Assembly (NCBI RefSeq): GCF_001422885.1
Contig: NZ_LMMZ01000001.1
Span: 624,565 to 688,564, forward strand
Direction: 5' to 3'
From: Methylobacterium sp. Leaf104
GTDB lineage: Bacteria > Pseudomonadota > Alphaproteobacteria > Rhizobiales > Beijerinckiaceae
DNA: 64,000 nt
Shown: in pieces, positions 4,617 through 18,316 of the stretch
Layout: the number at the start of each line of letters is the position of its first letter
How positions within the stretch are numbered: position 1 is the stretch's first letter
Position numbers and translations under genes: made by a program
Notes under the pieces: generated by a model
The model's database searches: none
What the model saw: only the letters and a program-made list of their open reading frames with translations
What the model was told of the DNA's origin: nothing

Positions 4617-6611
<1,995 letters not shown>

Positions 6612-6924
6612 GGTATCCGATCGCGCCGGCTCGGCCCGGTGCCCCGATCTTTCGAAGGAGCCGGCTCCCCTCGGGGCCGGCTCTTTCCTTTCGATGATGG
6701 GGCACGGTACCGACACAGGAACGAGACAGCATCCGGCGCTGCGCGGGCAACGGGTCTGTCACCGGAGACCAGTCGTCGACGCGCCGGGCGAAGCCCGTGT
6801 CGCCAGTTTGGCGTCGATGTTCGACGTCTGGTCTGCGCGGTTGAAGCGCTCACGCCCGCACGATACTCACAAAACCCGAACGGTCGCCGTTGCCGGACGC
6901 CGCTGCCCAACCCACCTTGGCCAT
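6612..6924. other. Gap between rpoD and the cyclase gene
   Basis: Apart from the rpoD terminator this 313-bp stretch has no convincing gene. The cyclase frame stays open up to an ATG at 6694, but the extra 77 residues are Arg/His-rich and look like translated non-coding DNA. A promoter for the cyclase should lie here; I could not pick out convincing -35/-10 boxes. Confidence 0.5.
6658..6690 (+). terminator. Intrinsic terminator of rpoD
   Basis: GAGCCGGC (6658-6665) and GCCGGCTC (6676-6683) form a perfect 8-bp GC-rich stem with a 10-nt loop, followed by TTTCCTTTC. It lies 46 bp after the rpoD stop. Confidence 0.85.
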
Positions 6925-8172
6925 ATGCTCGATCGAGGCCCGCCCCAGCCTTCCCCCACCGCCGAAGCCGATGGCTCGGAGGCGGCCGATGTCCCGTTCG
7001 GCGCGCTTCAGGCGTGCGTGGCCCTGCGCGACTGGCTGCTGAGCGAGGGCGCCCGGATGCCGAAGGCCGAGGAGCTGCTCTCCGGCCTCGCCGAGCGTCT
7101 GATCCGGCTCGATGTGCCGGTCGATCGGGCCACCACCGCGATCGATGCCCTGCATTCCGAGTATTCCGGCGTCGGCCGGTTCTGGACCCGCGAGGCGGGC
7201 TCCTCCGTGCGCCTGTTCCCGCACGGGGAAGCTTCCGACAAGGCCTACCGCGAAAGTCCGTTCTTTCGCGTCCACGAGACCGGCGAGTGGCTGATCCTCG
7301 ACCTCGCCGAGACGCCGGACGATGCCTTCGCGGTGATCCCCGACCTGAAGGCGGAGGGCTACCGGTACTACATCGTCGCGCCGCTGTTCTTCACCAACGG
7401 GACCCGCAACGGGATCTCGTTCGCCACCCGGTCCGAACTCGGTTTTCGCGACGAGGACGTGGCGATCCTGCGCTTCATCATGCCGACGCTGGCCGCCGTC
7501 ATGGAGATGCGCAGCGTCAACAAGCAGCTGGATCACGTCCTGCGGATCTATGTCGGGGACGAGCCGCACAAGGCGATCCTCGGCGGCTCCATCCGGCGCG
7601 GGCACGTCCAGCGCATCCGCTCGGCGATCCTGTTCGCGGACATGCGCGACTACACCCGCATCTCCGCCGACATGACGCCGGAGGAGGCGGTCGACCTCCT
7701 GAACATCTTCTTCGACTGCTTGGTGCCGGCCATCGAGCGCGAGGGCGGCGAGGTCCTGAAATATCTCGGCGATGGCCTGCTGGCGATCTTTCGCGAGCCT
7801 GGGGACGACCTCGGCGGCGCCGCGAAAGGGGCACTCACGGCCTCGCAGAGTGCCATGGCGGCGCTGGCCGAGGCCAACGCGCTCGGCCGGTTCGCCAATC
7901 CGGTCGCGGCCGGCATCGCCCTGCATCACGGCGAGGCCGCCTACGGCAATGTGGGTTCGGGCGCGCGCCTCGACTTCACCGTGATCGGGCGTGACGTGAA
8001 CCTCGCCAGCCGCGTCGCCCGCCTGAACCGGACTTTGGGCGAGCCCATCCTGATGACGAAGCCCTTCGTCGACTTCCTCTGGGACATGCCGGAACCCCTG
8101 GGCGAACACGCCCTCGACGGTTTCGCCGAACCGATGGGCGTCTATCGTCCCGTGCGTCCACCGGCCTCGTGA
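6925..8172 (+). CDS. Class III adenylate/guanylate cyclase
   Basis: Predicted soluble nucleotide cyclase, 415 residues from the ATG at 6925 (MLDRGPP). The N-terminal 200 residues contain a conserved alphaproteobacterial module without membrane segments, possibly sensory (GAF-like; inferred). The C-terminal cyclase domain shows metal-binding Asp residues in SAILFADMRDYT and in LKYLGDGLLAIF, plus the late FTVIGRDVNLASRVARL motif. The product is probably cAMP, but substrate choice cannot be settled by eye. The gene stands alone between the rpoD terminator and the thiamine riboswitch. An in-frame upstream ATG at 6694 exists but its extension does not look coding. Confidence 0.88.
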   Translation: MLDRGPPQPSPTAEADGSEAADVPFGALQACVALRDWLLSEGARMPKAEELLSGLAERLIRLDVPVDRATTAIDALHSEYSGVGRFWTREAGSSVRLFPHGEASDKAYRESPFFRVHETGEWLILDLAETPDDAFAVIPDLKAEGYRYYIVAPLFFTNGTRNGISFATRSELGFRDEDVAILRFIMPTLAAVMEMRSVNKQLDHVLRIYVGDEPHKAILGGSIRRGHVQRIRSAILFADMRDYTRISADMTPEEAVDLLNIFFDCLVPAIEREGGEVLKYLGDGLLAIFREPGDDLGGAAKGALTASQSAMAALAEANALGRFANPVAAGIALHHGEAAYGNVGSGARLDFTVIGRDVNLASRVARLNRTLGEPILMTKPFVDFLWDMPEPLGEHALDGFAEPMGVYRPVRPPAS

Positions 8173-11408: not shown

Positions 11409-12482
11409 ATGTGGGGCCAGAACCGTTTCCTCGAACGCGTGCCGGTGCGGCACCCGATCATCCAGGCGCCGATGATCGGACCCAAGCCGGCGCTCGCCGC
11501 CAGCGTGAGCGCGGCGGGCGGCCTCGGCTCCCTGGCCTGCGCGGCGATGAATCCGGATGCCGTGCGCAGCGAAGCCGCGGCGATCCGGGCCAGGACGGAT
11601 GCCCCGTTCAACCTCAACTTCTTCTGCCACGTGCCGGAAACGCCGGATGCGGCGTGCGACGCCGCCTGGCGCAGCCGCCTCGCGCCCTACTACGCGGAGT
11701 TCGGCCTGGATCCGGCGGCGCCGATCACCATGGCGCAGCGGGCGCCCTTCGATTCGGCGATGCTCGCGGTCGTCGCCGAGGTCCGGCCGGCGGTGGTGAG
11801 CTTCCATTTCGGCCTGCCGGAGGCGTCGCTCCTCGACCGCGTCCGGGCGCTCGGCTGCCTCGTTCTCTCGTCCGCCACCACCGTGCGGGAAGCGCGCTGG
11901 CTCGCCGAGCGCGGGGTCGACGCGATCATCGCGCAGGGAGCCGAGGCGGGCGGGCATCGCGGCCTGTTCCTCGGCAGCGATCCCGCGACGCAGGTCGGCA
12001 CGATGGCGCTGGTGCCCCAGGTGGTCGACGCTGTGGACGTGCCCGTCATCGCGGCCGGGGGCATCGCCGATGCGCGTGGCATCGCCGCCGCCTTCATGCT
12101 CGGCGCTTCGGCCGTCCAGCTGGGGACAGCCTATCTCCGCTGCACGGAGGCCGGACTCTCGCTGCCGCACCGCGAGGCCCTGCGCCGGGCGCGAGACGAG
12201 GACACGACCATGACCAACGTGCTGACCGGTAAGCCCGCCCGGGGCCTCGTGAATCGCGTCATCCGCGAACTCGGCCCATTGCGGGCCGATGCGCCCGTCT
12301 TCCCCACCGCCGCCATCGGCCTCCAACCCCTTCGGATCGAGGCCGAGCGGCGCGGGTCGGGCGACTTCTCGCCTCTCTGGGCCGGCCAGGGCGCGCCGCT
12401 CGCTCGTGAAACGGAGGCGGGGTCTCTGACCATCGAGCTGGCTGAGGGCGCGCTCAAGCTCCTGGGCGGCCCGAAGGGCTGA
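11409..12482 (+). CDS. Nitronate monooxygenase (2-nitropropane dioxygenase family)
   Basis: FMN-dependent class I nitronate monooxygenase-like flavoprotein, 357 residues, that in the family oxidises toxic nitronates such as propionate 3-nitronate. The TIM barrel begins HPIIQAPMIG. The proposed catalytic base is His183 in AEAGGHRG, and the FMN phosphate loops are VIAAGGIADARG and GASAVQLGTAYL. AGGGAG upstream supports the ATG at 11409. It starts 15 bp after thiE and may read through from the thiamine operon, but the metabolic link is unclear. Its stop abuts the convergent Anbu gene stop with no spacer. Confidence 0.88.
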   Translation: MWGQNRFLERVPVRHPIIQAPMIGPKPALAASVSAAGGLGSLACAAMNPDAVRSEAAAIRARTDAPFNLNFFCHVPETPDAACDAAWRSRLAPYYAEFGLDPAAPITMAQRAPFDSAMLAVVAEVRPAVVSFHFGLPEASLLDRVRALGCLVLSSATTVREARWLAERGVDAIIAQGAEAGGHRGLFLGSDPATQVGTMALVPQVVDAVDVPVIAAGGIADARGIAAAFMLGASAVQLGTAYLRCTEAGLSLPHREALRRARDEDTTMTNVLTGKPARGLVNRVIRELGPLRADAPVFPTAAIGLQPLRIEAERRGSGDFSPLWAGQGAPLARETEAGSLTIELAEGALKLLGGPKG

Positions 12483-13235
12483 TCACTTCGCCGTCGCCGG
12501 CCCGTAGGGCGGCCGGGGGATCGCCCGGTGGGCGGCGCGCAGGGCCGCCGACCAGCGCTCGCGCAGGTCGTGGAAGTAGCTCTCGCCGGCCTCGATCCGG
12601 TGGTTCACCTCGAGGTCGAGGGCGTTGCGGCGGGCGACCGCGATGTCGATGGGCAGGCCGACGCCGAGGTTCGACCGCATCGTCGAATCCATCGAGACGA
12701 GGCCGACCTTCAGGGCGTCGTAGAGGTCGGTCTCGTACTTCACCGCCCGGTCGAGGATCGGTTTGCCGTACTTGTGCTCGCCGATCTGCAGGAAGGGCGC
12801 ATCGCCGCTGCACTCGATGAAATTGCCCGCCGAGTAGATCAGGTAGAGCTTCATCGGATCGGTGCCGATCTGGCCGCCGAACAGCAGCGAGACCGAGAAT
12901 CGGAGATTTGCCGCCTCGAACCCGGCCTTCTCGATCTCACGGACGCGGCGGATGGCGCGGCCGACGAGCTGCGCCGCCTGGAACATCGTCGGCGCCTCGA
13001 CGAGCTTCATCTTCGGCTCGCCGGCATCGCCCTCGACCCCCTCGGCCAGCAGGCTGAGCACCGACTGGGTGATCGACAGGTTTCCGGCGGAGGCCAGCAT
13101 CATCACGCGCTCGCCCGGGACGTTGAAGTGGTGCAGCTTGCGGTAGGTCGAGATGTCGTCGAGCCCGGCATTGGTCCGGGTGTCGGCGATCATCACCAGC
13201 CCTTCCTCGACGAGGACACCGACGCAGTAGGTCAT
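12483..13235 (-). CDS. Anbu, bacterial proteasome-like peptidase
   Basis: Homologue of the 20S proteasome beta fold ('ancestral beta subunit'), 250 residues. After Met1 comes Thr2, the presumed N-terminal nucleophile, with Asp18 (MIADTRT) and Lys33 (TYRKLHHF) matching the Thr/Asp/Lys catalytic set. The core GERVMMLASAGNLSITQS and late SMDSTMRSNLGVGLPID segments are typical. Anbu forms open helical rings in solved structures; its protease activity and substrates remain unclear. It is the last gene of the run ATP-grasp, alpha-E, transglutaminase-like, Anbu, the usual partners of this family. Confidence 0.93.
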   Translation of the reverse strand: MTYCVGVLVEEGLVMIADTRTNAGLDDISTYRKLHHFNVPGERVMMLASAGNLSITQSVLSLLAEGVEGDAGEPKMKLVEAPTMFQAAQLVGRAIRRVREIEKAGFEAANLRFSVSLLFGGQIGTDPMKLYLIYSAGNFIECSGDAPFLQIGEHKYGKPILDRAVKYETDLYDALKVGLVSMDSTMRSNLGVGLPIDIAVARRNALDLEVNHRIEAGESYFHDLRERWSAALRAAHRAIPRPPYGPATAK

Positions 13236-13266
13236 GGTGCGGTCTTTCTCGCACGTCCGTCCGCGA

Positions 13267-14094
13267 TCAGGACTGGACGGAAGCCTGTGCCTGCTCGACG
13301 CGGAGCGTCACGTCGAGTGTTTCTGTCCCGCCGCCCATGCGGCTGCCACGGATCGGTGCCGCCCCGAGATAGTCGAGGGCGACGGCCACGCGGATATGCG
13401 CCTCCGTGGTGGCGATGCCGTGGGCTGCGTCGAAGCCGATCCAGCCGAGGCCCGGCACCAGGGCTTCCGCCCAGGCATGGCCCGAGCCCTGGTCCGCGTC
13501 CCGGTCGGTATGGTGGTAGTAGCCGGACACGTAGCGCGTGGGAATCTCGAGGTGGCGCGCTGCCGCGATGAAGAGGTGGGTGACGTCCTGGCAGACGCCC
13601 TTCTCCTGCGCGAAGGCCTGGGCCGCATTGGTGCTGGCGCTGGCCGGACCCGGGACGAAGGCGACCCGCTCGTGCACGGCCGCCAGGAGCCGGTGCAGGC
13701 AGGGCAGGGGGGCCGGATCGCCGGCCGCGGCGACCTCCTGCGCGAAGGCCTGGATGGCGTCGTTGGCCAGGGCGAGGTCCGAGTCCCGCAGGTAGAACAC
13801 GTCGGGCAGGCGCTCGATGGTGCCGCGCACGATGCCGTGCATCTCCAGGGTGTCGACCTCCCCGGTGACGCGGATCGACAGCGCCTCGGCCGGCTCGTCC
13901 GCCGTGAACCAGTGCACCACGTTGCCGAAGCCGTCCTCGCGCTCGCTCACGCGGCCGTCGACGGAAGGCTCGATGCGCCAGCGCCGGACATACTGCCCGT
14001 CATGGTCGCGCGGACGCAGGCGCAGGACCTGAATCAGCCCGCGGGCGGGCTGTTCGTAGGTGTAGTTGGTCTCGTGGAAGACGCGGATTCGCAT
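13267..14094 (-). CDS. Transglutaminase-like cysteine peptidase-fold protein
   Basis: 275 residues starting MRIRVFHETNYTYEQP, the N-terminal beta region that precedes the catalytic domain in this family. The Cys-His-Asp triad is intact: Cys168 in KGVCQD, His206 in GSGHAWAE and Asp222 in GFDAAHG. Such proteins may hydrolyse or transfer peptide/isopeptide amide bonds; no substrate is known for the Anbu-linked members. It lies 31 bp upstream of Anbu and 37 bp downstream of the alpha-E gene, so one transcript is likely. Confidence 0.93.
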   Translation of the reverse strand: MRIRVFHETNYTYEQPARGLIQVLRLRPRDHDGQYVRRWRIEPSVDGRVSEREDGFGNVVHWFTADEPAEALSIRVTGEVDTLEMHGIVRGTIERLPDVFYLRDSDLALANDAIQAFAQEVAAAGDPAPLPCLHRLLAAVHERVAFVPGPASASTNAAQAFAQEKGVCQDVTHLFIAAARHLEIPTRYVSGYYHHTDRDADQGSGHAWAEALVPGLGWIGFDAAHGIATTEAHIRVAVALDYLGAAPIRGSRMGGGTETLDVTLRVEQAQASVQS

Positions 14095-14131
14095 GCGGCG
14101 ACCTTTGCGCGGCGTCGGGCCGGGGCCGGCC

Positions 14132-15076
14132 CTATACCAGATATTGCTCGATGACCGCTGCGCCGAGGCGATTGTTCTCGACGATGAACTCCGTCACGAA
14201 CTCGTGCAGGCCGGAGGAGAAGATGCGGTTGATGTTCTCGCCCTCCAGGCGGGCCAGGGTGTTGCTGGCCAAGCGCTGGCTCGCGCCGCGCCGCCCATAG
14301 GCGTCGGCGATGAGGTCGAGATGCTCCACCAGCATGCCGTAGCAGTTGGTGAAGGAACGCGGCATCTGCCGGTTCAGGATGAGCAGGTCGGCCACGAGCA
14401 GGGGCTTCACGCTCTCGCGGTAGACCCAGTGATAGGCGTTGAAGGCCGAGACCTCGCGCAGGATCGTGGTCCACTGGAAGTAGTCGAGGCTGCCGCCGAT
14501 CTTCTCCGAGGCCGGCAGCAGGATGCGGTACTTCACGTCGAGGATGCGCGCGGTGTTGTCCGCCCGCTCGATGGCGGTGCCCAGCCGGGTGAACCAGTAG
14601 GCGTCGTTGCGCAGCATCGTCCGGTAGGCCGAGCCGTCGAAGGCGAGGGAGACTCCCTTCACCCAGTCGAGGAAGCGGGTGAACTCGTCGCGGTTGAGGT
14701 CGCGCCCCTCGTAGTTGCGCAGCTCGAGCCACGCGCCGTTGATGGCGTCCCACATCTCGGTGGTGAGCGCCGTGCGCACGCTGCGGGCGTTCTCGCGGGC
14801 GGTCTCGATGCAGGAGCGGATCGAGGACGGATTGTGCGGGCTGAAGGCGAGGAAGTCGCAGACGGTGGCTTCCGTGACGCTGTCATAGAGGGGCTTGAAC
14901 ACCTCCGGATCACCCGCCGAGGCCAGGGCGGAGGCCCACTCGTTGGTCTCGCCACCGCCGTAGCTCGACGGCAGGGCGGCCAGCCGCAGGGCGGCATCGA
15001 GGATGCGGGCGACGAACTCCGCCCGCTCGGCGTAGCGCGAGAGCCAGTACAGGTTGTCGGCGGTCCGGGACAGCAT
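14132..15076 (-). CDS. Alpha-E domain protein (DUF403)
   Basis: 314 residues, almost entirely helical, with the family N-terminus MLSRTADNLYWLSRYAERAE and the internal RADNTARILDVKYRIL repeat-like segment. No enzyme motifs are visible. Alpha-E proteins occur next to, or fused with, circularly permuted ATP-grasp proteins in Anbu and related clusters, where they are proposed to assist a peptide ligase (literature inference). It is separated by 128 bp from the ATP-grasp gene and closely followed by the transglutaminase-like gene. Confidence 0.93.
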   Translation of the reverse strand: MLSRTADNLYWLSRYAERAEFVARILDAALRLAALPSSYGGGETNEWASALASAGDPEVFKPLYDSVTEATVCDFLAFSPHNPSSIRSCIETARENARSVRTALTTEMWDAINGAWLELRNYEGRDLNRDEFTRFLDWVKGVSLAFDGSAYRTMLRNDAYWFTRLGTAIERADNTARILDVKYRILLPASEKIGGSLDYFQWTTILREVSAFNAYHWVYRESVKPLLVADLLILNRQMPRSFTNCYGMLVEHLDLIADAYGRRGASQRLASNTLARLEGENINRIFSSGLHEFVTEFIVENNRLGAAVIEQYLV

Positions 15077-15204
15077 GGGGTTCCATCGGGACGTCGACCA
15101 GCGTCGGGAACGCAGGCCGCAGGGCTGAAAGGACTATGCCGGAGGCGGCACGGGCTTGGAAAGGCATCCGGCGCGAAAGGCCGGGCCGGATGCCCGGCGC
15201 GATC

Positions 15205-16644
15205 TCAGGCGTCGAGGACCCAGGTGTCCTTGGTCCCGCCGCCCTGGCTCGAATTGACGACCAGGGACCCTTCCTTCAGGGCGACCCGGGTGAGGCCGCC
15301 GGGGACGATCCGGATCTCGTCGGAGCCGCAGAGAACGAAGGGGCGCAGGTCGACGTGCCGGGGCGCGACGCCGGAGGCGACGAAGGTGGGGCAGGTGGAG
15401 AGCGCCAGGGTCGGCTGGGCGATGAAGCCGTCCGGGGCGTGCTTGAGCTTGCGCCCGAACTCCTCGATCTCGCGCTTGGTGGCGTGCGGACCCACCAGCA
15501 TGCCGTAGCCGCCCGAACCGTTGACTTCCTTCACGACGAGGTCGCCGAGATTGTCCATCACGTAGGCGAAGGCATCCTTCTCGCGGCAGCGATAGGTCGG
15601 CACGTTGTGCAGGATCGGCTCCTCGCCGGTGAAGAATTTCACGATTTCCGGCATGTAGCTGTAGACCGCCTTGTCGTCGGCGATGCCGGTGCCGACCGCG
15701 TTGGCCAGTGTCACGGTTCCGCGCTCGTAGGCGTTCATGATGCCGGGGACGCCGAGCACCGAATCCGGGCGGAAGACCAGCGGATCGAGGAAGTCGTCGT
15801 CGAGGCGGCGGTACAGCACGTCGACCCGGCGCGGGCCCTCGGTCGTGCGCATGTAGACGACGTCGTCTTTGGTGAAGAGGTCCGAAGCCTCGACGAGGTC
15901 GACGCCGAGCTTGTCGGCCAGGAACGAGTGCTCGTAGAAGGCCGAGTTGTAGCGGCCGGGCGTGAGCAGGGCGACGGTGGGGTCGCGGGTGGCGGTCGAC
16001 GGCGCGAGGCTGCGCAGGGTCGCCAAAAGGGCGTCCGGATAGTTCTCGACCGGAGCCACGCGGTGGCGGGAGAACAGTTCGGGGAAGAGCCGCAGCATCA
16101 CCTCGCGGTTCTCCAGCATGTAGGAGACGCCGGATGGTGTCCGGGCATTGTCCTCCAGCACGAAGAAGTCGTTCTCGCCCGTGCGCACGATGTCGATGCC
16201 GGCGATGTGGACGTAGAGGTCGTGCGGCACCCGGAAGGCGCGCATCTCCATGCGGTAATGCGGGTTGCGGTAGACGAGGTCGGCCGGGATCACGCCGGCC
16301 TTGATGCATTCCTGCGCCCCGTAGATGTCCTTCAGGAACGCGTTGATGGCGGTGACGCGCTGCTTCAGGCCCCGTTCGAGGAAGCCCCATTCGGGCTTGG
16401 TGATGACGCGGGGAATGATGTCGAACGGGATCAGGCGCTCGGTGGATTCGTTCGCCCCATACACCGCGAAGGTGATGCCGATGCGCCGGAACAGCATCTC
16501 GGCCTGGCTGCGGCGGGTGTTGAAATGCTCGGGCGGCGTGGTGTCGAGCCAGTGCTTGAGGCTGTCGTAGGCTTCGCGCACGGCGGGGTTGCTCAGCGCC
16601 CCGTCGGGCAGCCCGGTCATCTCGTCGAATGCAGCGAGCGCCAT
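15205..16644 (-). CDS. Circularly permuted type 2 ATP-grasp protein
   Basis: 479 residues from ATG 16644 (MALAAFDEM), supported by GGGGGAG eight bases upstream. An in-frame ATG at 16665 lacks such a site. Family blocks are visible: the GITFAVYGANESTERLIPFD segment, FFVLEDNARTPSGVSYMLEN, the RRVDVLYRRLDDDFLDP acidic block, and VVKEVNGSGGYGM, which should hold ATP. The family is predicted to form amide bonds, probably making peptides or peptide tags. It is the first gene of the four-gene Anbu cluster, 102 bp after radC on the same strand. Confidence 0.94.
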   Translation of the reverse strand: MALAAFDEMTGLPDGALSNPAVREAYDSLKHWLDTTPPEHFNTRRSQAEMLFRRIGITFAVYGANESTERLIPFDIIPRVITKPEWGFLERGLKQRVTAINAFLKDIYGAQECIKAGVIPADLVYRNPHYRMEMRAFRVPHDLYVHIAGIDIVRTGENDFFVLEDNARTPSGVSYMLENREVMLRLFPELFSRHRVAPVENYPDALLATLRSLAPSTATRDPTVALLTPGRYNSAFYEHSFLADKLGVDLVEASDLFTKDDVVYMRTTEGPRRVDVLYRRLDDDFLDPLVFRPDSVLGVPGIMNAYERGTVTLANAVGTGIADDKAVYSYMPEIVKFFTGEEPILHNVPTYRCREKDAFAYVMDNLGDLVVKEVNGSGGYGMLVGPHATKREIEEFGRKLKHAPDGFIAQPTLALSTCPTFVASGVAPRHVDLRPFVLCGSDEIRIVPGGLTRVALKEGSLVVNSSQGGGTKDTWVLDA

Positions 16645-16746
16645 TCGCGTCTCCCCCTTGAACACCGTTCTTGTCTAGGCAAGAGGCGCGCCAGCGACCG
16701 GAGATCGACGCCTGCGCGCACCGCCCTTGCGTGTACGGTAGCACGT

Positions 16747-17475
16747 TCAGATCAACTTCAAGCCCTTGAAGCTCGCATGTCCTTCGCGACCCAGGATGAT
16801 GTGATCGTGGATGACGATGCCGAGGGGGTCCAGCACGCTCACGATCTCGCGCGTCATCCGGATGTCGGCCGCCGAGGGCGTCGGATCGCCGGAGGGATGG
16901 TTGTGGGCGAGGATGATGGCGGTGGCCGAGAGTTCGAGGGCCCGGCGCGCCACCTCGCGGGGATAGACCGGCGTGTGATCGACGGTGCCCCGTCCCTGGA
17001 CCTCGTCGGCGATGAGGTGGTTGCGACGGTCCAGGAACAGCACGCGGAACTGTTCGCGCGCGGCGAAGGCCATGGTGGCGCGACAATATTCGAGGACGGC
17101 GCCCCACGAGGAGAGCAGGGGGCGTGCGGCTATGGCACCGCGGGCCAGCCGGTGCCCTGCCGCTTCGATGAGCTTCAGGTCGGCGATGACCCCGGGACCG
17201 ATGCCTTCAATTTCAGCAAGTCGCGCGGGTTCGGCGCTCAGGACCTCGGCAAAGCTGCCGAAGCGCCCGATCAGCGCCTTGGCGAGGGGCTTCACGTCGC
17301 GGCGCGGGATCGCCCGGAACAGAGCGAGCTCGAGCAATTCATAGTCCGGCAGGGCGTCGGCGCCGCCCTGGGCGAAGCGGGCGCGCAGGCGGTCGCGATG
17401 GCCGAGATAGTGCGGGTCCGCCTCCTTCGGTGCCTCGTCCGGACGGTCGGGAGCGGACGGCGGCCGGGCGGTCAT
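16747..17475 (-). CDS. radC: RadC family JAB/MPN protein
   Basis: 242 residues. An N-terminal helix-hairpin-helix region (about 45-105, ending in [13 protein letters not shown]) precedes a JAMM metalloprotease-like domain with the metal motif His191-x-His193 and Asp204 in [14 protein letters not shown]. The name dates from a DNA-repair assignment later withdrawn; the JAMM motif is that of deubiquitinase-like isopeptidases. It lies 10 bp after map and just before the Anbu cluster, so it may be co-transcribed with both. Confidence 0.95.
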
Positions 17476-17485
17476 GGGAGGCGGA

Positions 17486-18316
17486 TCAGCCGGCGGTGGG
17501 TGCAGGCTGGTGCAGGCCCTTCGGCGACAGGGTGAAGATCTCCGCCCCTGTCTCCGTCACCGCGACGGTGTGTTCGAACTGCGCCGAGAGCGAGCGGTCC
17601 CGGGTCACCGCGGTCCAGCCGTCGGACAGCACCTTCACGGCGGGACGGCCGAGATTGATCATCGGCTCCACGGTGAAGAACTGGCCGGGCTGGAACTTCA
17701 CGTCGTAGCTCGGCTCGACGTAGTGCAGGATGGTGGGCGCATCGTGATAGGTGCGCCCGAGGCCGTGCCCGCAGAAGTCGCGCACCACGGAGCAGCGCTC
17801 CGCCTCGGCATAGGTCTGGATCGCCCGCCCGATATCCGTGGTCGAGCCGCCCGGCCTGATCGCGGCGATGCCGCGCATCAGGCACTCGTGGGTGATCTCG
17901 CACAGGCGCTGCGCCTTGCGCGGAACGTCGCCGACATAGGCCATCCGGCTCGAGTCGCCGTGCCAGCCATCCACCATGAGGCAGATGTCGAGGTTGACGA
18001 TGTCGCCCTCGCGCAGGGGCTTGTCGTTCGGGATGCCGTGGCAGACCACATGGTTGATCGAGGTGCAGATCGACTTCGGATAGCCGCGGTAGAGCAGCGA
18101 GGCCGGATAGGCGCCGTGATCCATCGCGAAGGTGTAGGCGAGCTTGTCGAGATGTTCGGTGGTGACGCCCGGGGCGGTCGCCTCCATCAGGACGTCGAGG
18201 GCCTCGGCCGTCAGCCGGCCGGCCCTGCGCATGCCCTCGAACGCGTCCGGTCCGTGAATCGGCGGCTGGGGCGCGCGGCGTCCGCTCTCGGACACGGCCT
18301 GTTCGTTCTGGGTCAT
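17486..18316 (-). CDS. map: Methionine aminopeptidase, type I
   Basis: Removes N-terminal Met from nascent proteins when residue 2 is small. 276 residues with the five metal ligands in pita-bread order: Asp in NLDICL, Asp in HGDSSR, His in [10 protein letters not shown], Glu in FTVEPM and Glu in AQFEHTV. The start is the ATG at 18316. It is upstream of radC and the Anbu cluster on the same strand. This is suggestive because Anbu (Met-Thr start) would need exactly this processing to expose its Thr nucleophile. Confidence 0.97.

Follow-up and report, generated by a model that had tools for sequence, protein, structure and literature searches.

A stretch of 64,000 nt from Methylobacterium sp. 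Leaf104 (contig NZ_LMMZ01000001.1, positions 624,565 to 688,564), here called the window, contains a complete gene cluster for Anbu, a little-understood relative of the proteasome for which the literature surveyed reports no substrate or activity. Four intact open reading frames (ORFs) lie on the minus strand (16644-12483) in the order ATP-grasp, alpha-E, transglutaminase-like and Anbu, behind a predicted sigma-54 promoter element of the GG-N10-GC type, TGGCGCGCCTCTTGCC (16678..16693, minus strand), whose first base is 49 bp before the ATP-grasp start. New here are the recurrence of this element in relatives and a bias in the retention of the cluster genes. Our best explanation, which we hold tentatively and give slightly less than an even chance, is that the intact cluster is likely driven by sigma-54, presumably under nitrogen stress, and that its ATP-grasp/alpha-E ligase would make a peptide or conjugate with an amide bond, for the transglutaminase-like protein and Anbu to trim or recycle. 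The comparisons given below lead us to infer a functional motif in the window, nitrogen as the signal and, as the product, a small metabolite rather than a tag for degradation.

Promoter element and its recurrence in relatives

Promoters of the sigma-54 class follow the consensus TGGCAC-N5-TTGCW (GG-N10-GC) and are situated close upstream of the gene. The sequence TGGCGCGCCTCTTGCC agrees with this consensus at 9 of 11 positions and is the sole exact match to TGGCRC-N5-TTGC in the window. A likely ribosome-binding site of the ATP-grasp gene, AAGGGGGAGA (16650..16659, minus strand), was read from the sequence. A scan of positions 12000-17500 for sigma-70-like promoters found none, and rpoN is present in all 78 genomes of the order that were searched, including the one investigated here. 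The motif was spotted in the window first and then tested in relatives.

For this comparison, the best GG-N10-GC site in 310 bp around each ATP-grasp start was scored against the consensus over its 11 positions. The three controls, always given in the same order, are the reverse strand, the inside of the gene and a region farther upstream, the last being shortened or empty at loci with little upstream DNA. At the order level (78 loci, window included) the score is at least 9 in 23 loci, with controls of 2, 0 and 2, and at least 10 in 12 loci, with 0, 0 and 0. Dinucleotide shuffles of the same regions gave means of 3.2 (maximum 9) and 0.34 (maximum 3) at these two thresholds. Counted by family, 12 of 31 families have a score of at least 9 (controls 2, 0 and 2).

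Within the family, 31 out of 47 relatives reach a score of at least 9 and 13 a score of at least 10, while the controls, which refer to all 49 rows, are 2, 0 and 0 at the lower and 0, 0 and 0 at the higher threshold. The window is counted both in the order-level set (as W) and among the 49 family rows (as L155); these rows also hold L204, a paralogue cluster, and L156, which comes from the same genome as L060. Dropped as too short were L100 from the order-level and L203 from the family-level scan. The two congeners examined have a like element at the same place, scoring 9 and 8 of 11.

The element is also found outside the class. Among loci from other classes, of which 22 out of 40 could be scanned, 12 score at least 9 (controls 1, 0 and 2) and six at least 10 (controls 0, 0 and 0), with four of the 12 matches located at -196 or beyond, where chance matches are likelier. 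A further set of named, mostly gamma- and betaproteobacterial loci (59 of 80 scannable) has 41 with at least 9 (controls 2, 4 and 5) and 26 with at least 10 (controls 0, 1 and 1). The recurrence of this promoter class across several classes of Proteobacteria points to a growth condition under which the operon might be studied, nitrogen limitation.

Cluster genes and the retention of the ligase half

The initial annotation had described four neighbouring genes reading in one direction, with intact catalytic residues, and this description is confirmed by the ORFs and by comparison with Pfam and the Protein Data Bank (PDB). The first gene (15205..16644, as the following ones on the minus strand) codes for a circularly permuted ATP-grasp protein of type 2, a predicted amide ligase, which matches Pfam CP_ATPgrasp_2 (PF14403) over the full profile (542.7 bits, positions 1-374 of 374) and PDB entry 3n6x with an E-value of 1e-196; all of 31 conserved residues chosen for comparison are present. 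The alpha-E protein (14132..15076, 314 aa) scores 314.5 bits against Alpha-E (PF04168) and keeps the residues E17, R18, E170 and R171 of the ER motif. Its AlphaFold2 model is all helical and confident (pLDDT 90.5, pTM 0.89), and a search with it for structural relatives gave none that was usable; one relative in sequence stands at 98 percent, and the closest with a species name, from Methylobacterium gossipiicola, at 94 percent. The transglutaminase-like protein (13267..14094) matches Bact_transglu_N (PF08379, 81.9 bits) and Transglut_core (PF01841, 74.6 bits), with C168, H206 and D222 all in place. Anbu (12483..13235), a proteasome-beta-like Ntn hydrolase, exceeds the cut-off of Proteasome (PF00227) with 26.4 against 22.4 bits and matches the solved Anbu chains 5loy (best, E 1.4e-78), 5nyj (1.6e-69) and 5nyf, as well as the chains 5lox and 5nyw, which are named peptidase. 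According to PMC6376114, Anbu is marked by an N-terminal Thr after the Met, Asp17 and Lys32/33, and T2, D18 and K33 of the window protein fit these marks. The four genes probably form one transcript, for which the gaps between them (128, 37 and 31 bp, from first to last) and the absence of any other promoter-like site are only suggestive.

Four-gene clusters of this kind are already known (Iyer 2009, Valas and Bourne 2008, as cited in PMC5666114 and PMC6376114). The window shares with them the families, their order and the catalytic residues, solved structures exist for relatives of its Anbu and ATP-grasp, and no difference was found in its proteins. Anbu occurs in 95 of 150 genomes at the order level and in 102 of 299 at the level of the phylum. 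All four genes are co-directional within the stretch examined in 78 of the 95 order-level Anbu loci, a co-occurrence beyond chance (a contig end is nearby in L100, one of the 78, and in some of the 17 exceptions, for example L098, L143 and L144). Therefore, the cluster in the window is an ordinary member of the known one.

The retention of its parts is uneven. In 60 genomes of the family, an ATP-grasp orthologue was found in 55 and Anbu in 41; the 40 genomes with both do not always have them as neighbours. Anbu was called per genome at an E-value of 0.001 and not by adjacency, and in some genomes, for example G164, it is located far from ATP-grasp. Fifteen of the 55 genomes with ATP-grasp have no Anbu match, and 14 of these 15 are at least 91 percent complete. 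Conversely, a single one of the 41 Anbu-bearing genomes, G171, has no ATP-grasp match, and G201, outside the 55, has a paralogue of ATP-grasp only. In all of the 14 Anbu-less loci examined alpha-E adjoins ATP-grasp, and a transglutaminase-like gene is seen in eight of them within the DNA examined. The 31 ATP-grasp residues, hand-picked from the order alignment, are unchanged in each of these 14 loci; the count of family loci with all 31 unchanged is 49, our own included.

Of 83 order-level sequences of the transglutaminase-like protein, 14 lack the catalytic Cys168, a count in which the window, having the Cys, is included and the incomplete sequence of L097 is omitted. Placed on a quick tree of ATP-grasp plus alpha-E (79 rows, 13 of them without the Cys), this requires at least six changes, four of which are forced by well-supported branches, and these changes are probably losses and not gains. 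Among full-length copies from the family, Ala occupies the position in four of five from Anbu-less genomes and in one of eight from Anbu-bearing genomes. In the loci L235-L374 the Cys is found in 86 of 87 operon copies. All 96 order-level rows have the Thr, Asp and Lys of Anbu, and of 140 further sequences 139, 140 and 140, respectively, have them. The one deviating protein, from locus L248 (genome G224; 6501-7229, plus strand), starts with MSYC, Ser replacing the catalytic Thr.

With the hydrolytic half repeatedly eroded and the ligase half kept, the latter looks like the core of the system and Anbu like an accessory, within the scope of one family of related genomes and of paralogues that might stand in. 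Such erosion would be hard to square with a ligase product destined for destruction by Anbu and is in keeping with a ligase that has its own product. The initial annotation saw the ligase in the service of Anbu and of the transglutaminase-like protein, which was not supported in view of the 15 genomes without an Anbu match and the 14 sequences without the Cys. Its other element, the formation of amide bonds by the ATP-grasp/alpha-E pair, is plausible. In the mechanism which we propose, sigma-54 polymerase and an enhancer-binding protein would switch on the operon under nitrogen stress. ATP-grasp would then activate a carboxylate using ATP, phosphate release from ATP, and nothing further, having been reported for a homologue (PMC6376114). 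Together with alpha-E it would join the activated carboxylate to an amine, and the transglutaminase-like protein and Anbu may cut or transfer the amide product. A more specific version, in which the ATP-grasp/alpha-E heart of a sigma-54-controlled nitrogen-stress pathway makes a small peptide or amine conjugate, with Anbu and the transglutaminase-like protein as processing enzymes that can be dispensed with, is possible but rather doubtful; if true, Anbu, a bacterial cousin of the proteasome, would tailor a nitrogen-linked metabolite rather than destroy proteins.

Nitrogen signal and competing explanations

The NtrC box has the consensus TGCACC-N5-GGTGCA. In the named set, 23 of the 41 sigma-54-positive loci carry a like box with at least 10 of 12 positions in the 450 bp preceding the ATP-grasp start, compared to a mean of 0.93 (maximum 5) in mononucleotide shuffles, and Pantoea dispersa (L299) has 12 of 12. 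Within the order, a 17-bp dyad TGC-N11-GCA, which has the NtrC spacing, occurs in 14 of 55 sigma-54-positive promoters (expected 3.7).

Nitrogen control of the Anbu operon as such is already published for Pseudomonas putida and is not new. There, the genes PP_2685-PP_2688, with PP_2685 described as 20S-beta-like and PP_2686 as a transglutaminase (PMC7801951), react when nitrogen is limiting and are described as probably controlled by NtrB/NtrC (PMC7801951, PMC3325844); their nitrogen induction is noted in PMC5666114, too. In the wild type PP_2686-2688 are up 11 to 15-fold (PMC7801951, Table 2), and PP2685 is listed at 11.1 and 4.0 in PMC3325844. The window resembles this operon in its 20S-beta-like and transglutaminase genes, but P. 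putida is a Gammaproteobacterium whose operon is still induced in an rpoN mutant, and the window has no NtrC box. In Burkholderia cenocepacia, I35_5080-5083 are sigma-54/NtrC targets, 6.0 to 9.4-fold lower in an ntrC mutant (PMC5491218). These share DUF404/407, DUF403 and transglutaminase-like genes with the window; the fourth gene, however, codes for a large transglutaminase-like protein and not for Anbu. In the literature collection searched, no paper contained Anbu together with NtrC, each as a whole word, and neither the recurring promoter element, in the order or in other Proteobacteria, nor the retention bias was seen in the literature surveyed, mostly below full-text level.

Several observations weigh against a sigma-54 promoter that answers to nitrogen and serves a ligase core. 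Genome-wide the pattern is at background, with 26 matches versus 27 for the reversed pattern, and the promoter case therefore rests on conservation. A score of 9 is lacking in 55 of the 78 order-level loci and, for other orders of the same class, in 16 of 18 scanned loci (of 20), two having it. Where ATP-grasp and Anbu are on opposite strands and both starts could be scanned (15 loci), the element with at least 9 is present at both starts in three (L332, L354 and L364), which lends limited support to the joint regulation implied in the initial annotation, and 12 do not have it at both. Among family loci the element is commoner with Anbu in the genome (27 of 35, own included) than without (5 of the 13 that were scanned), with a Fisher p of 0.018 uncorrected for relatedness, and therefore fits poorly to the ligase half being, by itself, the core. 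As to the signal, the best NtrC box upstream of the sigma-54 element in the window has 7 of 12 positions, which we do not count as one, and the dyad was not found there either. For the 55 sigma-54-positive promoters of the order (window included), an NtrC box beats shuffles at 5 percent in one, and in the named set NtrC-like boxes also occur in 7 of the 18 loci without a score of 9. Finally, PP_2686 is induced 14.2-fold in the P. putida rpoN mutant against 12.6-fold in the wild type, urtA likewise still being induced in this mutant, and the Anbu-like PP_2685 is not induced in the wild type (1.12; PMC7801951, Table 2). Two of the alternatives take up these points. The promoter could be sigma-54-dependent and yet be activated in this order by a different enhancer-binding protein in response to a different signal, in line with the missing classical NtrC box in the window and the single positive promoter among 55; the boxes in 23 of the 41 named loci and the enrichment of the dyad in the order's own set argue against it, and we consider it unlikely. 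Alternatively, the motif might be a chance match and the genes be expressed from a sigma-70 promoter, as the background level of the pattern and the GC-rich genome would allow. However, with 26 matches over the two strands of 4.97 Mb, the probability that any particular single-strand stretch of 100 bp holds one is about 3 in 10,000. Moreover, like elements occupy the corresponding position in both congeners and in 31 of the 47 relatives from the family, and the scan found no sigma-70-like site; we consider chance very improbable.

Two further alternatives concern the function and share the assumption that Anbu degrades proteins. In a proposal described in PMC6376114, ATP-grasp and alpha-E would attach peptide tags to proteins, the transglutaminase-like protein would edit the tags and Anbu would degrade the tagged proteins, in the manner of a bacterial ubiquitin or Pup pathway. 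The gene order, the shared promoter element and the nearly invariant Thr, Asp and Lys of Anbu agree with it. The gene-loss pattern, which points first to the ligase half, speaks against it, the ligase residues being unchanged in the 14 Anbu-less loci; in addition, when Yersinia Anbu served as bait, none of the other three proteins was detected as a specific binder, and no peptidase activity of Anbu homologues was found in vitro, both according to PMC6376114. We regard tagging for degradation as unlikely. Anbu could also be a general starvation protease which the other three proteins modify or activate, so that the operon raises protein turnover at nitrogen shortage. PMC5666114, where an open dodecameric ring is reported for Anbu homologues, prefers protein degradation and refers to the many cleavage sites of the ring, the binding of proteasome inhibitors and the nitrogen induction in P. 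putida. Yet genomes that lack Anbu retain ATP-grasp and alpha-E, the Anbu loci L070, L080 and L087 have no partner gene in the stretch examined, and the negative peptidase result applies here as well; we find this explanation quite unlikely. The preferred reading remains an amide ligase under sigma-54, with Anbu among the enzymes that may process its product.

Opposite orientation of ATP-grasp and Anbu was seen in L065, L066, L067, L072, L095, L134 and L138, none of which has the element with at least 9 at both starts.

Second cluster and flanking DNA

The genome has a second cluster (L204, contig C34), which the B. cenocepacia genes resemble. It comprises a large transglutaminase-type ORF with an open frame of 1222 aa, presumably of the family DUF2126, an ORF of 940 aa in which an alpha-E part is apparently fused to ATP-grasp, and a further ORF of the transglutaminase-like type. 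No sigma-54-like site with a score of at least 9 was found on its strand.

The 128-bp gap between the ATP-grasp and alpha-E genes contains a 13-nt inverted repeat with a 6-nt loop (15163..15194, minus strand), which is unique in the genome and not conserved: among 14 relatives whose gap measures 100-300 bp, seven have no repeat of this kind and seven have different, shorter ones (8-11 nt). Downstream, a convergent gene for a nitronate monooxygenase (PF03060; 11409-12482, plus strand) terminates one base short of the Anbu stop; a search of the other loci found no counterpart. Directly upstream of the cluster, radC and a gene for an M24 peptidase of the methionine aminopeptidase type are located on the minus strand (window positions 16747-18316); of the 95 order-level loci, 27 also have radC and 24 the M24 gene.

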